IMG/VR virus record: IMGVR_UViG_3300044641_001512
Location: 1-36,520 of that record
Reading direction: 5' to 3' (one strand)
Source of the DNA: a virus
DNA length: 36,520 bases
Positions within the stretch are counted from its first letter, which is position 1. Each line of letters opens with the position of its first letter. Under the pieces are notes generated by a model. The model was given only the letters and a program-made list of their open reading frames with translations. It did not search any database and was not told the origin of the DNA. Of the stretch, positions 1-36,520 are shown piece by piece. The translations under genes and the position numbers were made by a program.

Positions 1-12
1 GGTCGCTTAACC
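1..12. repeat. 12-bp terminal direct repeat, left copy
   Basis: GGTCGCTTAACC at the left end is repeated exactly at the right end (36509-36520). A minus-strand reading frame continues in phase when one copy is removed, so the repeat marks circular closure. The length equals the 12-nt cohesive ends of lambda, and the genome carries lambda-type terminase genes close by. It could therefore be a filled-in cos overhang captured at both ends, or simply an assembly overlap. Confidence 0.8.
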
Positions 13-220
13 CACGTTCCTGTCCTAGCCCGAAAGCTTCCTTATACCCGTACGCCCTACCCTCCACCCTCAAATAGCTCGAAATGCCCTTAAAACGCAC
101 AGAACGGCGTCCTAGGAGCATCGTGGCGATTGCCGTGAGCTCGCGTTCCGTAGCCATCGCCCAGTCTGCGCGCTTGACTAGGGTATCGCACTTATTCGTT
201 TTATTGCTATGCGTTATCAT
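1..220 (-). CDS. Hypothetical protein crossing the contig junction (79 aa when closed)
   Basis: This frame is too short to be obvious in the linear window because it runs off position 1. It starts with ATG at 220-218, which shares one base with the TAA of the upstream gene (TAATG), so it is translationally coupled. If the 12-bp terminal repeat is collapsed, the frame continues in phase from 36508 and ends with TAA at 36491-36489, giving 79 residues that begin MITHSNKTNKCD. The next ATG (36479) lies 9 bases further on. I recognise no family. The composition is basic and mainly helical. The coupled start and intact frame across the joint make it likely to be a real gene. Confidence 0.65.
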   Translation of the reverse strand, partial: MITHSNKTNKCDTLVKRADWAMATERELTAIATMLLGRRSVRFKGISSYLRVEGRAYGYKEAFGLGQERGLSD

Positions 221-642
221 TAAGCCTCACCCTTAAGTCCGTCCGCGTCGCTCCTCGCATCCTCGTGATGGTCGATGGTCTGCCGGTAATCGAGCATGAG
301 CGTGGCCAATCGCGGAAACACCAAGGCAACTCTAGCCATCTCCTTGCCGAACTCGTAGTGTAAAGCCTGCCGCGTCCGTCCGGTCTTCTCGGCCATCTCA
401 CTGAACGATTGCGTGACCGCGCTCACGTCGCCAGACCCAACCCTGAGCACGACCATGAACATAGTGGGCGATAGGTCGGCGAGCGTCGCCAGTCGGCGGC
501 ATAGGTCAGCCGCGCTCCTCACCTCGCACTCGTCGATCTCGACCAATCGTTCCATGATCTCCGCAGTCAGCTTCGCCGAATCACTCGCGCCGTCGTAAGT
601 CGCGGTATAGACTGGCTGGCGGTTGATCGTGTAGGTGATCAC
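220..642 (-). CDS. Hypothetical protein with possible helix-turn-helix
   Basis: This is a 140-residue protein with a GTG start at 642 that overlaps the stop of the upstream gene as GTGA. Residues about 80-110 (FSEMAEKTGRTRQALHYEF) look like a helix-turn-helix of the kind that picks out 'new or rare' recognition helices. The rest is helical and unremarkable. A DNA-binding or regulatory role late in the replication operon is an inference. The gene is followed by a TAATG-coupled small gene that crosses the contig junction. Confidence 0.6.
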   Translation of the reverse strand: MITYTINRQPVYTATYDGASDSAKLTAEIMERLVEIDECEVRSAADLCRRLATLADLSPTMFMVVLRVGSGDVSAVTQSFSEMAEKTGRTRQALHYEFGKEMARVALVFPRLATLMLDYRQTIDHHEDARSDADGLKGEA

Positions 643-29508: not shown

Positions 29509-31683
29509 TTATTTGTTTTCAGCTTTAACCGTCTTGCTTAACTCGATGATGGATTTTTCTCCGACGATGTTTTGTTTGATTTCATCGACGCGGCCATTTT
29601 GTTTCTTCCGATAATTCTGAACCGCGTCTAGCCACTCTTCTGGCTCCGGTGGTTGCAGCGCAGCAAAACTTTGCCGCACTTCGCTCGATGCTGCTTTGAG
29701 TTCTTTAGTGTCCGCCTGCTTGTTTAGTCGCTCAACGATTGCGGTCGCCCACGAATAACCCTCGTCTCCGCCCCAGCCGTTCCACGCCTGCCAGCCCTTA
29801 CCTTGCTCGTCCCAAGTCTCGCCGTTCTTGTCGGACTCGTGACGGTCAAAGTACGCCTTCATGCGGCGCACGGTTTCCTCGGAGAGCGGGCGGCGGTTCA
29901 TCAAGTCACGCGCGCGAGCAATGCCCACGCTCGTCATGCCGCGTTGCGAGGCTGGTTTCTTGTCGCGTACTTCAAGAGCGCGCTTGGCGTTGTCGGCGAT
30001 GGCGACCGTCGGAATGTAGGTATTAGTCTCGAAATCAATCGTGACGAGATTTGATTCGTTCTGTATTTGTGTGACTGGCTCGGCTGGCGCAGGTTCTTGC
30101 GACTGGCTCGCCTTCTGTGCTTCGGCGGCGGACGCACCAACTGCATCGCCCGCAGCAGCAGCAGCGGCAGGAGTGCTAGGTAGCGAGTTCGTCGTGAGGC
30201 GTATAGCGGTTTCTGGCACGCCATACTTCGCGGCCAACTCTTTGACGTAACCAGCCTCGATTGCGATCTGCTCTAAACGCGAGAACGCGTCGGTGCCTTC
30301 TTCGGCAGCGATTTCTTGCAGCGACTTCGCGCCTTGGCGATTTTCGTTCATGTTCGCAGCGGACTCGCGGCCAACGTCGATCGAGAGCTTAGCAGGAAAA
30401 CGCCATTCGCCTTTAGTTGCGCGGCGCAGAGCTTGCACCATCGTCTCGCCCGCAAGCAGCGTCGGAGGCGGAATTTCACCGCGCGCGATGGCATCGAGGA
30501 TTACAGCGTCTTTGATTGGATCGAGTACCTTGTCGGTGAGGACGCCTTGCTGGCGCGTGAATACGCGGTCAGCTGCTGCAAATTCAGCCCGAACGCTTGG
30601 GCCTTTATAGTCTTGTGTGCCGAATAATACTCCTTCGGGTATGCCCACGGACATGGCAATTTCGTGCATTAAATGCTGCACGAATCCGGTGAACGCTTGC
30701 GACGGACGCGATGGCATTACTTCCACGCGGTCGCTGTTTTGGAAATAGCGAATCATGCCGACCTCGGTCAGCTCGTTTTTTTGCTGCTGTCCGCTCGGCA
30801 GCGAGAGCGCAGGATTTGGTTGGAAAAGATTGCGCGGGTTCGCAGTGCCTCGGTCGTTGAAGATAAGCGCGGCCTGTTGCGAGGAGAAGCGCACGCCCGC
30901 TTTCTCGGCTTGAAGAATTTCGTGCAGCATCCGCGAAGTCTGAATCCCAGTCGCTAGATCAGACACTCCTCTGTACATATCAGACCGATTTGGATCGAAG
31001 TAGTGGCAGAACTGATTCGCTGGAATGTCCTCTGCGCCAAAGTAAACTCCATTCCGATCTACGCGATAAATACGGTAAGCAATCGGCTGCCCAAAGTCGT
31101 CGGTGATGATGCCTTGGTAATAGTTGTTGGACTCGACCGCTGCGCTGTTCGGATTGCCGATGCGCGTGGCCGGCACGAGTTGCAGTTTCAAGCCTTCGCC
31201 AGAACGACGAATAACGAAACCGCAATCGCCGTCCACCGGACGTTCCTCGGCAGCAATTTGAATTAGCTTCTTAAACGAGTGCCGATTGGTCACATCGCAA
31301 TGCTTGCACCAATCGTGAAAATAATCGCTGACCGTCTGATTGTAATCGCGGTCTCCGGTGGTAGGTGAGTATTCGTGCGGCGTTAGATACAGACCAAACT
31401 TGCGCGAGACCTCGCGAACTTCAGGTGCGTTGTCGATCAAGTCACGTGCTTCCCACATTAGCACTACTCGGTCGCGCTGGTTCTGCGTGCTTTCCGATGG
31501 CTGGCCGTATTGCTTCGGAGCGTAAAGACGATTAGTGCGCGCGGCGTTATATTCGAAAAGTGATTTCTGAACACGAGCCTCCAGACGTTTCAACGCCCAA
31601 GTCGGCGCGATGTTCTCAAGCGCGCGGTCAAGCCAAGGCTGATTCTTGATTAGCTTAGAAGCGTCAAAGGTCTCGTTGTCCAT
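29509..31683 (-). CDS. Portal protein (lambda gpB family) with extra C-terminal domain
   Basis: 724 residues, longer than lambda gpB (533). The portal core runs to about residue 480 (ARDLIDNAPEVREVSRKFGL; FCHYFDPNRSDMYRGVSDLA; IPEGVLFGTQDYKGPSVRAE). An Ala/Gln-rich linker follows at about 495-550. A second module at about 555-653 (KRALEVRDKKPAS; TSVGIARARDLMNRRPLSEE; GWQAWNGWGGDEGYSWA) resembles a small domain found appended to other phage head proteins and as part of protease or capsid genes. It forms the dodecameric DNA channel of the head. Confidence 0.88.
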   Translation of the reverse strand: MDNETFDASKLIKNQPWLDRALENIAPTWALKRLEARVQKSLFEYNAARTNRLYAPKQYGQPSESTQNQRDRVVLMWEARDLIDNAPEVREVSRKFGLYLTPHEYSPTTGDRDYNQTVSDYFHDWCKHCDVTNRHSFKKLIQIAAEERPVDGDCGFVIRRSGEGLKLQLVPATRIGNPNSAAVESNNYYQGIITDDFGQPIAYRIYRVDRNGVYFGAEDIPANQFCHYFDPNRSDMYRGVSDLATGIQTSRMLHEILQAEKAGVRFSSQQAALIFNDRGTANPRNLFQPNPALSLPSGQQQKNELTEVGMIRYFQNSDRVEVMPSRPSQAFTGFVQHLMHEIAMSVGIPEGVLFGTQDYKGPSVRAEFAAADRVFTRQQGVLTDKVLDPIKDAVILDAIARGEIPPPTLLAGETMVQALRRATKGEWRFPAKLSIDVGRESAANMNENRQGAKSLQEIAAEEGTDAFSRLEQIAIEAGYVKELAAKYGVPETAIRLTTNSLPSTPAAAAAAGDAVGASAAEAQKASQSQEPAPAEPVTQIQNESNLVTIDFETNTYIPTVAIADNAKRALEVRDKKPASQRGMTSVGIARARDLMNRRPLSEETVRRMKAYFDRHESDKNGETWDEQGKGWQAWNGWGGDEGYSWATAIVERLNKQADTKELKAASSEVRQSFAALQPPEPEEWLDAVQNYRKKQNGRVDEIKQNIVGEKSIIELSKTVKAENK

Positions 31684-31956: not shown

Positions 31957-33747
31957 TTACTCCTTGGGCGGCGTGTAGCGAACCACGTTTGCAATCGTCG
32001 CCATGCAGAGCATCATGGCCGAGGTGTCCAAGCCGTGATTTGGTGCGTTGCTTTTTACCTCACGCCATTCCCAGACGCCTGTTCTGATTTCAACTTTGGA
32101 CTCGCCTTTGAGGTGTTCAAGGTAGAGCGGATTGACGTCGGCGGGCATGAGCCATTTGAGGTCGCCTTTGTTTTCGAGCGCGTTCGCCAAGATGTCTTTG
32201 AAGTAATCGCCGCTCCAATCGTAATAGAACACGTCGCCGCCTCGATAGTCACTCGTGCGCGGCTCGCTGAATGGGAAGTTAATCAGCGCGTTCGTGTTCT
32301 CGTCGCGCATCGTCCACGTCTTACGCGCGTGTCCTCTCATGCCACGCCAACCAAAGTCGGCGCAGTCACGATCTACGTCGGCGGGCCGGTAGCCTCTGTC
32401 TTGCGCCACGCATCCGTCCTGAACCTTGTAACGGTGCTGCATTTGACGGAGCTGGTCGCGCGTCTCGATGCGTCCAAAATAGAGTTGCTTGTAGGTTGGG
32501 CCAGTCGCAGAGGAGAAGGCTCCTATCTCTAGCCACCAATGGTCTTGCTGTCGATCGATTGCCATGAAACGAATCACCTCGCCCTCGATCTGTTCGCCAT
32601 TCGAGAATTGCGAAACGGTGTAGTCGCTCGCTTGCACGAACAAGTTGACGACCTTCTTTTCGACAATCCACGGCCTTGCCTCACGCTTCGTCTTGAACTC
32701 GATCTTCATCTTGTCGTCGCCTTGGCGCACGAAGTGGTTATCGGCGGCGCAGAACTCCTCGACGAGTAGGCGCATTGGCCGCGAGACTAAAGCCTCGACG
32801 CGGAAACTTTGAAACTCAATCGGCGCGTCAGGTCGCATTGGCACGAACCGTCCGGTGCGTTTCCAAGCGTTGCGCGTAGCGTCGGAGTCTGGTGACTCGT
32901 GGCCGCAATGCGGACAGCGGAAACGGCAGGACTCGACGGCGCGCGTCACGTCCCACGTCTCGTCATCGCGCTTTGCTGCTGCATCCCAAACGACGCCTCC
33001 GCGCAGACCTGTCTCCTCGTTCTTTTCGAGAGTGAACGCGATTGGATGAACCTTGGCGCACGACGGACATTCTGCGCTCCATTCTTGTTGGTTGCCCGAG
33101 CGATAGCTCGTGTCCTCGACGTTGCCAGTTTCCAAGTCCATGACAGGAGCTTGCGACGTGTTGTAGATTTTCGAGCGTCCAACTTCCTCGAAACGAGACA
33201 CGCGCGCAACCGCATGACCATAAACGTCTTGCCATTTCGGTAGCCATATCTCGTCGTTCACCTTGTAGCGGATGGACTGGCTTTGCTGCGAGGAAAGATT
33301 CGCAGGGTTTAGGATAAAAAAGAAACCGCCGAAGTAAATCTCGGTCGTCGTCTTCATCGGGCCAGCGCGCGGCAGCATCTTGGCGACCGGCTTGCAGCTT
33401 TCAAAGATCGGGTTGAGCCTCGACTTGGCGTGGCGATCAATCATTTCGTCGGTCTGCATCGTCCACGAGATAGGGCCAGCGTCGTTGCAGATAATCCACG
33501 GAATCCAAATGTCGGCTACGAGCGTGCCGCCGATCTGAACTGCCTTCCTAAAATGCACGCGACGCACTAGCGGATTCTGGAGCGCATCAAAGATCGGAAT
33601 CAGCCACGGCGAGAGGCGCACGTTGAATGGGCCTGACGTTGCGTAGCTCTCGGGCAACACGATGTGCTTGCGCGCCCACTCGTAGATCGGCGAGCGGTCA
33701 CGCTTCGGCAGCTTGAAAATAGCAAGGCGGCGGTCGGCTTCGGTCAT
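31957..33747 (-). CDS. Terminase large subunit (lambda gpA family)
   Basis: 596 residues, near lambda gpA (641). The N-terminal ATPase has FRKAVQIGGT (67-75) at the Walker A position; as in lambda gpA the classical GKT is absent and a basic residue precedes the loop. YKVNDEIW (161-168) takes the Walker B place. A zinc-finger-like pair, CPSC (227-230) and CPHC (278-281), lies between ATPase and nuclease, a feature of this family. The nuclease part has MAIDRQQDHWW and HGLDTSAMM with expected acidic residues. It cuts concatemers at cos and drives packaging. Confidence 0.92.
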   Translation of the reverse strand: MTEADRRLAIFKLPKRDRSPIYEWARKHIVLPESYATSGPFNVRLSPWLIPIFDALQNPLVRRVHFRKAVQIGGTLVADIWIPWIICNDAGPISWTMQTDEMIDRHAKSRLNPIFESCKPVAKMLPRAGPMKTTTEIYFGGFFFILNPANLSSQQSQSIRYKVNDEIWLPKWQDVYGHAVARVSRFEEVGRSKIYNTSQAPVMDLETGNVEDTSYRSGNQQEWSAECPSCAKVHPIAFTLEKNEETGLRGGVVWDAAAKRDDETWDVTRAVESCRFRCPHCGHESPDSDATRNAWKRTGRFVPMRPDAPIEFQSFRVEALVSRPMRLLVEEFCAADNHFVRQGDDKMKIEFKTKREARPWIVEKKVVNLFVQASDYTVSQFSNGEQIEGEVIRFMAIDRQQDHWWLEIGAFSSATGPTYKQLYFGRIETRDQLRQMQHRYKVQDGCVAQDRGYRPADVDRDCADFGWRGMRGHARKTWTMRDENTNALINFPFSEPRTSDYRGGDVFYYDWSGDYFKDILANALENKGDLKWLMPADVNPLYLEHLKGESKVEIRTGVWEWREVKSNAPNHGLDTSAMMLCMATIANVVRYTPPKE

Positions 33748-34796: not shown

Positions 34797-35011
34797 GCTT
34801 CGTCTTTTGTTGCTCCGCCACTCGATGAAAAGAAAGGTCGTTCGGATGTCAGCTCGATCTCGAAATGGTCATCGACGCAACGCCCAGCCCACGCGACTTG
34901 GTAGAGCAAACAGTTGGGTCGGTAAATCATGGCAATGATGACGCCAGCGTCGTCGCCGCAAGTGCGGTGCCAGACCATGTCGCCGAGGCGAAACTTTGGT
35001 GTGTCGGTCAC
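34793..35011 (-). CDS. Small SH3-like hypothetical protein
   Basis: 72 residues from GTG at 35011, overlapping the terS stop (GTGA) with GAGGAAAC upstream. KFRLGDMVWHRTCGDDAGVI, then RPNCLLYQVAWAG, looks like a small beta-barrel of the KOW/SH3 type ('LGD.V......G.V' pattern). The Ser/Gly tail is flexible. It may bind nucleic acid or a partner protein. Coupled to the PD-(D/E)XK gene by ATGA. Confidence 0.6.
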   Translation of the reverse strand: MTDTPKFRLGDMVWHRTCGDDAGVIIAMIYRPNCLLYQVAWAGRCVDDHFEIELTSERPFFSSSGGATKDEA

Positions 35012-35496
35012 GTTTCCTCGATGTTAGCCGACCGACTTACCATCTCGCCTTGATAGGTTGCGATGTTGGAGTTGATCACCTCGCGTATCTCGTCTAAGAT
35101 CAGCGCGCCCTCGACGTTTGCCTCGGCTGCGTTCTTGCCGATTACGCGCTGGCCTAGCTCGACCTCTAGTTTGAGGCGCAGGAGCAGGTCGAGTTTCTGG
35201 GCGAGCGTAGAAAACATTTCATCAACGACCTCGCTTGCCACGACCTCGCCAGCCTCGCGCTCATTACGCGCGCGCGCGAGACGGATTTGCTCACGCATCA
35301 ACTCGGCCTTGAGTTCAGCTAGTCCGCCACCGCTGCCGCCTACGCGTCCGAGTCCGTGCGAGTCCGCCCACGCCTTGACCTGTTCAAACGTGCCGTCATG
35401 CGGAAAGCCTTCGCGTTTGCGCCAGTTGCGAAGCGTGCGAATGTCGATTTGCAGCTTCTCAGAAAGCGCAATGAGATCGGGTTCAGGCTTGGGCAT
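35008..35496 (-). CDS. Terminase small subunit (Nu1-like)
   Basis: 162 residues, close to lambda gpNu1 (181). N-terminal winged HTH with ALSEKLQIDIRTLRNWRKRE (about 10-29) and TFEQVKAWADSHGL. A Gly-rich hinge (GGSGGGLAE) follows, then a helical oligomerisation region (LREQIRLARARNE-type, and LAQKLDLLLRLKLEVELGQR). It recognises cos DNA and feeds it to the large subunit. The gene overlaps the HNH gene by 14 bp and lies about 1 kb from the contig ends. Confidence 0.82.
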   Translation of the reverse strand: MPKPEPDLIALSEKLQIDIRTLRNWRKREGFPHDGTFEQVKAWADSHGLGRVGGSGGGLAELKAELMREQIRLARARNEREAGEVVASEVVDEMFSTLAQKLDLLLRLKLEVELGQRVIGKNAAEANVEGALILDEIREVINSNIATYQGEMVSRSANIEET

Positions 35497-36412
35497 ATTT
35501 TGAGCCTTTGCTTATGTTTTTAGATGCCCACATTGGTTGGAGATTGCGCCAGTTAAAGCACTCAAACATCTGATCTTTTTGGCTCAAATCAAAAGAGGCG
35601 CATGGTCTGATATGATCAACGTGCCATTCGCCGTAATTACTCCACGACATTCCTTGTTCAAATTTGTTTTCGATGTAACTTCTAAGAAACTCAACTGAGC
35701 AGCCGACCATAGAAAATGAGCCAATGTTGTTCACGCTTTGGTTTTTCATAGCGCACCATATCCGACCCATGACGCGCTTTCTTAGCCTAGCAGACGGAAT
35801 CGCCATATTTTTATGGTATCTCGCTTTTCTCGTTTCGCTGGGAGTCAGCGAATCGCTTGGCTTAAAATAATTCCTTCGCTTGGTCGTGTCGATTCCAGCC
35901 TCCTTGAGAGCATACAAAACCTGTGCGCCTGACGTTCTAAACTCCTTGGCGATTGTTTTGGTTCCTATTCCTTGATGGTATCTAGCCATCATGACGATTA
36001 TGTTGTCCCACGCTTTGCTCGCAGTTTCCTTAAACTGAATGGCATTGCTTCCGCCCTTAACGTGTCGCGAGGTAAGCCAATCAATCACGTCGCCTTGAAT
36101 CACTTTATGGAGCTTCCTGTCGTGAGCCCAGCCCTTCGTTTGATCGTGAATTATTCGTCTCAGTTTTGGGCCCACCATTTGCCGATGAAAGAAAAGCGAT
36201 CCGTTGCAACTTAAGTCCACGAGTGCCATTCGAGAGATTCCTTTTGATTGCGATAATTCTGTGATCGTCTGATCGCAGGTTTGTCCCGTGTAAATGTTTT
36301 GCCACCTGTGCAACCAACCCACGCGAGAGTCTGGCGTTCTTCGCGCACGCTGAAAGTTTTGCAGCGGTTTTCGCGCGCCCACCTTTTCGTCCCATAGCTC
36401 TAGCTGATTCAT
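35483..36412 (-). CDS. HNH endonuclease
   Basis: 309 residues from ATG at 36412, with an in-frame TAA immediately upstream. The C-terminus has GMSWSNYGEWHVDHIRPCAS (about 254-273), FDLSQKDQMFECFNWRNLQP and MWASKNISKG, a well-known HNH pattern with the first His and Asp in HVDHI and an Asn in the last helix. The N-terminal 190 residues contain HTH-like segments (GTKTIAKEFRTSGAQVLYAL). HNH proteins next to terminase genes are often needed for cos cleavage; a homing role is the alternative. Confidence 0.78.
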   Translation of the reverse strand: MNQLELWDEKVGARKPLQNFQRARRTPDSRVGWLHRWQNIYTGQTCDQTITELSQSKGISRMALVDLSCNGSLFFHRQMVGPKLRRIIHDQTKGWAHDRKLHKVIQGDVIDWLTSRHVKGGSNAIQFKETASKAWDNIIVMMARYHQGIGTKTIAKEFRTSGAQVLYALKEAGIDTTKRRNYFKPSDSLTPSETRKARYHKNMAIPSARLRKRVMGRIWCAMKNQSVNNIGSFSMVGCSVEFLRSYIENKFEQGMSWSNYGEWHVDHIRPCASFDLSQKDQMFECFNWRNLQPMWASKNISKGSKYAQA

Positions 36413-36479
36413 TTAGCGAAACGCTTTGGTGTGCGTTAATTGAGTCAATCTTATTTTGTGTTTCTTGCGGAACAATCAT
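36105..36479 (-). CDS. Overlapping frame with KGG motif at the HNH start (doubtful)
   Basis: A 124-codon frame from ATG at 36479, overlapping the HNH gene for its last 300 bases in the +1 phase. The first 40 residues look protein-like: helical, then ARAMGRKGGRAKTAAKLSA, close to the KGG box of the 55-aa protein at 33911. Beyond about residue 55 the sequence looks like a shadow of the HNH gene. It may be a short real gene, or the original N-terminus of the HNH protein disconnected by a frameshift. It starts 9 bases after the junction-spanning gene stops. Confidence 0.35.
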   Translation of the reverse strand: MIVPQETQNKIDSINAHQSVSLNESARAMGRKGGRAKTAAKLSACAKNARLSRGLVAQVAKHLHGTNLRSDDHRIIAIKRNLSNGTRGLKLQRIAFLSSANGGPKTETNNSRSNEGLGSRQEAP

Positions 36480-36508
36480 GAAAAAAAATTACGTGATTTC
36501 TTGCACGA

Positions 36509-36520
36509 GGTCGCTTAACC
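36509..36520. repeat. 12-bp terminal direct repeat, right copy
   Basis: This is an exact copy of positions 1-12. It lies about 1 kb upstream (minus strand) of the small terminase gene, roughly where lambda-type phages keep cos. Both copies contain the same part of the junction-spanning reading frame. Confidence 0.8.

Follow-up and report, generated by a model that had tools for sequence, protein, structure and literature searches.

The window, the whole 36,520-bp stretch of viral DNA that was analyzed, carries its packaging genes on the minus strand. A gene at 31957 to 33747 encodes a terminase large subunit (TerL) of the lambda gpA type (phrog_15); its match to PF05876 (GpA_ATPase; E 1.4e-24) scored 87.6 bits against a cutoff of 25.6, which places it in the GpA ATPase family and agrees with an earlier sequence-only reading that had called the terminase lambda type. 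The portal protein (29509 to 31683) belongs to the lambda family (PF05136; E 1.5e-39), and the terminase small subunit gene, terS, lies at 35008 to 35496 (phrog_57; E 1.6e-06). The structural model of TerS was weak (pLDDT 69, pTM 0.33), with a helix pattern compatible with a gpNu1-like N-terminal winged helix; a structure search with this weak model returned no significant fold match, and comparison of TerL with solved structures returned nothing useful. In our TerS alignment (A1), the C-terminal half is conserved and the N-terminal part is of two dissimilar, exchangeable helix-turn-helix-like types, while cosN stays unchanged.

The first and last 12 bases of the window are identical, as the sequence-only reading had noted: GGTCGCTTAACC occurs at positions 1 to 12 and again at 36509 to 36520, the match extends no further, and a search of all 36,520 nt found no third exact copy. 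On the minus strand, which codes for terS and the other packaging genes, the 12-mer reads GGTTAAGCGACC, and the joint of the two ends runs from GGACAGGAACGTG through a single GGTTAAGCGACC into TCGTGCAAG. We assign the two copies to cosN, in filled-in form, at the right chromosome end (1 to 12, minus strand) and at the left, terS-side end (36509 to 36520, minus strand). The start of terS is 1024 nt from the end with an HNH endonuclease gene in between, much as had been described. Across related contigs, cosN takes the form GGT-N6-ACC followed by T, with six variable central bases; GGTTAAGCGACC is the commonest version, and GGTTGCAAGACC, GGTTCCGACACC, GGTGGTTAAACC, and others also occur. Since GGT, ACC, and the following T belonged to the pattern by which the leader/cosN alignment was selected, their invariance in that alignment is partly by construction; the GGT-N6-ACC contig starts found through the TerS search described below were not chosen on sequence. 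A literature search for the 12-mer found no record of it.

The gene between cos and terS (35483 to 36412, minus strand; phrog_1035, phrog_28061) encodes a protein with an EndoVII/HNH-type C terminus (motif WHVDHIRP...FNWRNLQPM...NISKGSK). Its position would suit a component of the machine that cuts cos, as in some other cos phages, and one publication counts HNH endonucleases among the components of packaging (PMC5304195). An HNH-dependent cleavage system would be expected to keep its HNH gene always beside the terminase genes, and the cos-terS interval of close relatives does not show this. The HNH gene is absent from the interval, and terS begins 48 to 114 nt from the end, in L009, L010, L011, L025, L034, L036 to L042, and L044, which have the same kind of cosN; other relatives carry an HNH gene in this slot, and in further lineages other genes fill it. 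A role for the HNH protein in cos cutting is unlikely because the gene is missing from the interval in close relatives with the same cosN (those listed, apart from L036 and L044), and we regard membership in the cutting machine as improbable. The gene probably stands outside that machinery and is best read, from its distribution among relatives, as mobile or accessory; the cos-terS slot is, on the same comparison, a variable cargo site. Cargo in the slot of L043, L045, L050, L051, L058, and L068 includes a ParB_N domain with an N4/N6 methylase, a C5 cytosine methylase, a Tet_JBP oxygenase, a TET-associated glycosyltransferase, a GNAT/ABC fusion, and DUF5131. We also detected a second open reading frame (ORF) of 124 aa at 36105 to 36479 (minus strand), in a different frame from the HNH gene and overlapping its 5' portion; comparable ORFs (78 to 124 aa, beginning NESARAMGRKGGR) are found in HNH-bearing relatives.

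At the other end, the gene at 220 to 642 (minus strand), which encodes a 140-aa protein of unknown function that is 94 to 96% identical in eight relatives, served as a control for the ORF that follows it. The sequence-only reading had described a minus-strand frame that starts at an ATG at 220 and runs through the joint, and this ORF is real: it covers 1 to 220, continues at 36508 to 36489 with a TAA at 36491 to 36489, and encodes 79 aa. That reading had also treated the position of cos inside a coding frame as an unusual feature of the phage, for which a functional role found no support. If cos did lie within a functional gene, that gene could yield its product only once the two ends had been joined. 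In the window and in L002, L005, L011, L085, and L086, all with exactly 208 bp from ATG to cosN, no stop interrupts the frame at cos; the gene upstream has a stop that overlaps the start of the frame; and the first 37 codons of the frame show a pooled pN/pS of 0.53, a value that, like those that follow, is a descriptive pairwise sum over related sequences. Nearest cos, however, pN/pS is 1.27 (codons 38 to 58) and 1.92 (codons 59 to 69, with few changes), against 0.077 in the adjacent 140-aa gene, so that no constraint at the protein level is evident there. Against a functional gene there is also L088, in which the distance from ATG to cosN is 207 bp and the shifted frame stops at a TAA inside cos; the C termini encoded beyond cos differ; and no homologous ORF was found at cos in the distant lineages L140, L141, L142, L154 to L156, and L161. 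Because only one of the three frames of GGTTAAGCGACC contains a stop, an ORF arriving at cosN will often run through it. Given the break in L088, the pN/pS values, the distant lineages without the frame, and the stop-poor 12-mer, the presence of cos inside a frame is most likely incidental and not a conserved feature, and we consider a gene dependent on circularization highly improbable.

The relatives examined were the 80 IMG/VR contigs returned by a TerS search, and the support that they lend to a cos is, at the level of sequence, far stronger than the window alone allowed. In 48 of the 80, which come from 45 metagenomes and represent 40 distinct sequences over the first 300 nt, the GGT-N6-ACC 12-mer is the exact contig start. 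At the other end of the chromosome, contigs L086 and L088 terminate exactly at GGTTAAGCGACC, and L085 passes from its cosN end into AGATCGGAA, the start of a TruSeq adapter; in L007, a P7/TruSeq adapter ending in CCGATCT immediately precedes GGTTAAGCGACC. We take the adapter sequences in L085 and L007 to be Illumina P7/TruSeq. Searching with a cosN-plus-leader pattern recovered 55 contigs in which the match lies mostly at position 1 or at the last base, and most near-complete relatives have the cos at one end only. Six terS-bearing contigs (L005, L006/L002, L011, L046, L060, and L069) run continuously across the joint with a single copy of the 12-mer, in keeping with the proposal that the molecule closes. 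Because the joint is contiguous with one copy in relatives and dozens of related lake-virus contigs end there, the 12-bp repeat is not a product of chance. Judging by these contigs, the chromosome has fixed ends at one unique sequence, and the two ends share a cohesive sequence that leaves one copy when they are joined. The authors of PhageTerm (PMC5557969) describe how end repair fills 5' overhangs, so that both termini carry the cohesive sequence, and degrades 3' overhangs; shared terminal sequence is thus confined to 5' cos phages, and assemblers put cos at the contig limits. With the same 12 bases at both contig ends, the window fits their 5' cos case. The sequence-only reading had proposed a 12-nt cos overhang with filled-in virion ends as the source of the repeat; the contig ends at the 12-mer and the adapter junctions now support the overhang, and the repeat is what a 12-nt 5' overhang filled during library preparation would give. 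We infer that the 12 bp exist as single-stranded 5' overhangs in the virion.

A blunt, duplex direct terminal repeat of 12 bp would yield the same assembled sequence as a filled-in overhang. Among direct terminal repeats, the PhageTerm authors give 131 bp as the smallest, and 12 bp falls below their threshold of 20 bp between cos and direct terminal repeats (PMC5557969). The contigs that span the joint hold just one copy there, and the terminase is of the gpA type; we assign the blunt repeat a very small probability. That the repeat is a mere assembler overlap on a circular or permuted genome has next to no probability, as the pile-up of contig ends and the junctions with adapter already refute it: a coverage break could leave a short end overlap in a single contig, and the joint is indeed contiguous in relatives, but the identical base is the break point in 48 of 80 independent contigs, the 12-mer is joined directly to adapter at each end, and 12 bp is shorter than the usual assembler k-mers.

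A 5' cos is thus the reading that we carry forward. Inward from cosN on the terS side, a leader of about 50 nt (feature at 36466 to 36508, minus strand, with a T tract at 36481 to 36488) aligns without gaps in about 55 distinct leaders, the T-tract positions 36 to 40 reaching 1.4 to 1.8 bits; in many lineages the first gene starts near nt 56 from the end. By its position and conservation, the leader is a candidate cosB and a candidate TerS-binding segment. A search near the joint for TerS-binding repeats, which the sequence-only reading had suggested as a check, found none that were convincing, and none resembling R1 to R3 of lambda were recognized. On the right-end side, a conserved block, CGCCGTTCTGTGCGTTT (93 to 109, minus strand), starts 97 bp before cosN in the window, L002, L005, L011, L085, and L086 and 96 bp before it in L088; the block is also present in L129 and L130, with other sequence upstream. 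We considered this block as an attachment site and rejected it: the exact pattern CGCCGTYCTRTGCGTTTTAAGG matched three viral contigs and no bacterial genomes.

Closer to the right end, a dyad of the form AAG-N4-CTT (AAGGAAGCTT; 34 to 43, minus strand) starts 31 nt before cosN. This spacing is conserved: almost every cos region in the comparison has the dyad at -31 or -32, the loci from bacterial bins L152, L154 to L156, L158, L160, and L161 among them; in L046, L086, and L088 the dyad is degenerate. A scan for AAGGAATCTTTT followed after 18 to 24 nt by GGTN6ACCT returned 23 contigs, of which 4 look like chance matches; the other 19 are further loci with a spacing of 20 or 21 and downstream ORFs like those of the TerS clade. 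From position and conservation, we identify the dyad, with moderate confidence, as the counterpart of cosQ. Directly before it in the direction of packaging lies a G-rich, G-quadruplex-like tract (47 to 71; G on the terS-coding, minus strand), which outscores every other 25-nt segment of the genome, on both strands, in G4Hunter. Relative to random segments of the same contig, the tract ranks in the top 5% at 30 of 32 distinct cos sites and in the top 1% at 23 of them (median score of 2.15 versus 0.37 for random segments), and a strong tract is missing at two (L154 and L160). Its sequence and length differ among lineages while the G-rich property persists. The DNA near cos, dyad and G-rich tract together, is by this comparison conserved as DNA. 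Several contigs stop in or right beside the G-rich tract (ends of L087, L089, L129, and L130; starts of L019 and L020), which suggests sequencing or assembly dropout there.

Taken as a whole, the window is very probably the complete linear virion chromosome of a tailed phage with a lambda-type terminase, with a three-part cos at its ends and an incidental ORF through the joint. We have high confidence that this is a genuine 5' cos of the lambda type, from an apparently undescribed clade. The gpA-type terminase would make staggered nicks, before GGTTAAGCGACC on the top strand and before GGTCGCTTAACC on the bottom strand, producing 12-nt 5' overhangs; end repair of the library would then fill them and place the 12 bases at both contig ends. 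The proposed cos consists of cosN (GGT-N6-ACC, then T), the gap-free T-tract leader as candidate cosB, and the right-end G tract and dyad as candidate cosQ; the joint ORF would be a poorly constrained small ORF that enters a DNA element, not a gene that requires cos. On arrival, the motor would encounter first the G tract, next the dyad, and last cosN. In lambda, ending packaging requires cosQ and cosN (PMC4669245), and in the window's clade the tract and dyad may together form a cosQ-like termination signal that marks the DNA, or slows the motor, for the terminating cut. We speculate, with low confidence, that a quadruplex-forming tract ahead of the dyad could pause the translocating motor so that the terminal cos is recognized, a structural stop signal undescribed for lambda; such pausing is a tentative idea that we think somewhat unlikely. 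A literature search combining G-quadruplexes with cos sites in phages found nothing, and one combining them with terminase and packaging returned only papers that, judged by titles and abstracts, concern other topics. The dyad at fixed spacing and the G tract point to a termination signal and so bear on how a lambda-type motor recognizes its stopping point.

Relatives of TerS in bacterial genomes were mostly in Opitutaceae/Opitutia bins, with one in a Betaproteobacteria bin and one in an Akkermansia bin. The phage host is probably a freshwater member of Opitutia (Verrucomicrobiota), an assignment drawn from metagenome bins, which can be wrong. The locus in the bin labeled Betaproteobacteria (L161) shows this cos architecture too, its cosN being GGTGGTTAAACC, and reflects either wrong binning or a wider host range. 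A search of TerS against sequenced isolate phages gave no match. These results give a large and essentially uncultured clade of phages associated with Verrucomicrobiota a defined cos site. They also show that chromosome ends can be placed with single-base precision from bulk metagenome contigs alone, by way of end pile-ups and adapter junctions.

The marine Verrucomicrobia phage P8625 (NC_029047), the one isolate from this phylum in the list of TerL matches, also has a gpA-type TerL (20% identity over 97%) but no terS match in the phage collection. We examined P8625 as a possible relative with the same cos and set it aside: the combined motif of GGT-N6-ACC plus dyad is absent, and its record has no shared end repeat. 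The HK97-type 3' cos phages likewise have fixed cohesive ends, but library preparation would trim their 3' overhangs and leave no shared end sequence (PMC5557969), whereas the ends of the window share 12 bp.

The closest comparison is with the cos of lambda (cosQ-cosN-cosB; NC_001416). Both have a 12-nt 5' cohesive end (inferred for the window), a gpA-family terminase, a lambda-type portal, and terS beside the left end; both contain GCGACCT within cosN, with a CTTTC block at an equal distance from it, at the position of cosQ in lambda. The Q-like segment of the window, which was picked after inspection, shares 12 of 20 positions with lambda (shuffle P = 0.0009). Unlike lambda, the window has its 12-nt frame shifted one base with respect to GCGACCT and lacks recognizable repeats like R1 to R3, and the center of cosN varies widely in its clade. 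The right end of lambda has no G-rich tract, so this right-end element of the window's clade is, in the sequences compared, one not seen in lambda. The N15 cos (PMC4669245) is also lambda-like, with a simpler cosB and with variation within the cohesive end. Between N15 and lambda, that variation concerns 2 of 12 positions, whereas the window's clade varies all six central positions, keeps GGT and ACC, and adds the G tract.
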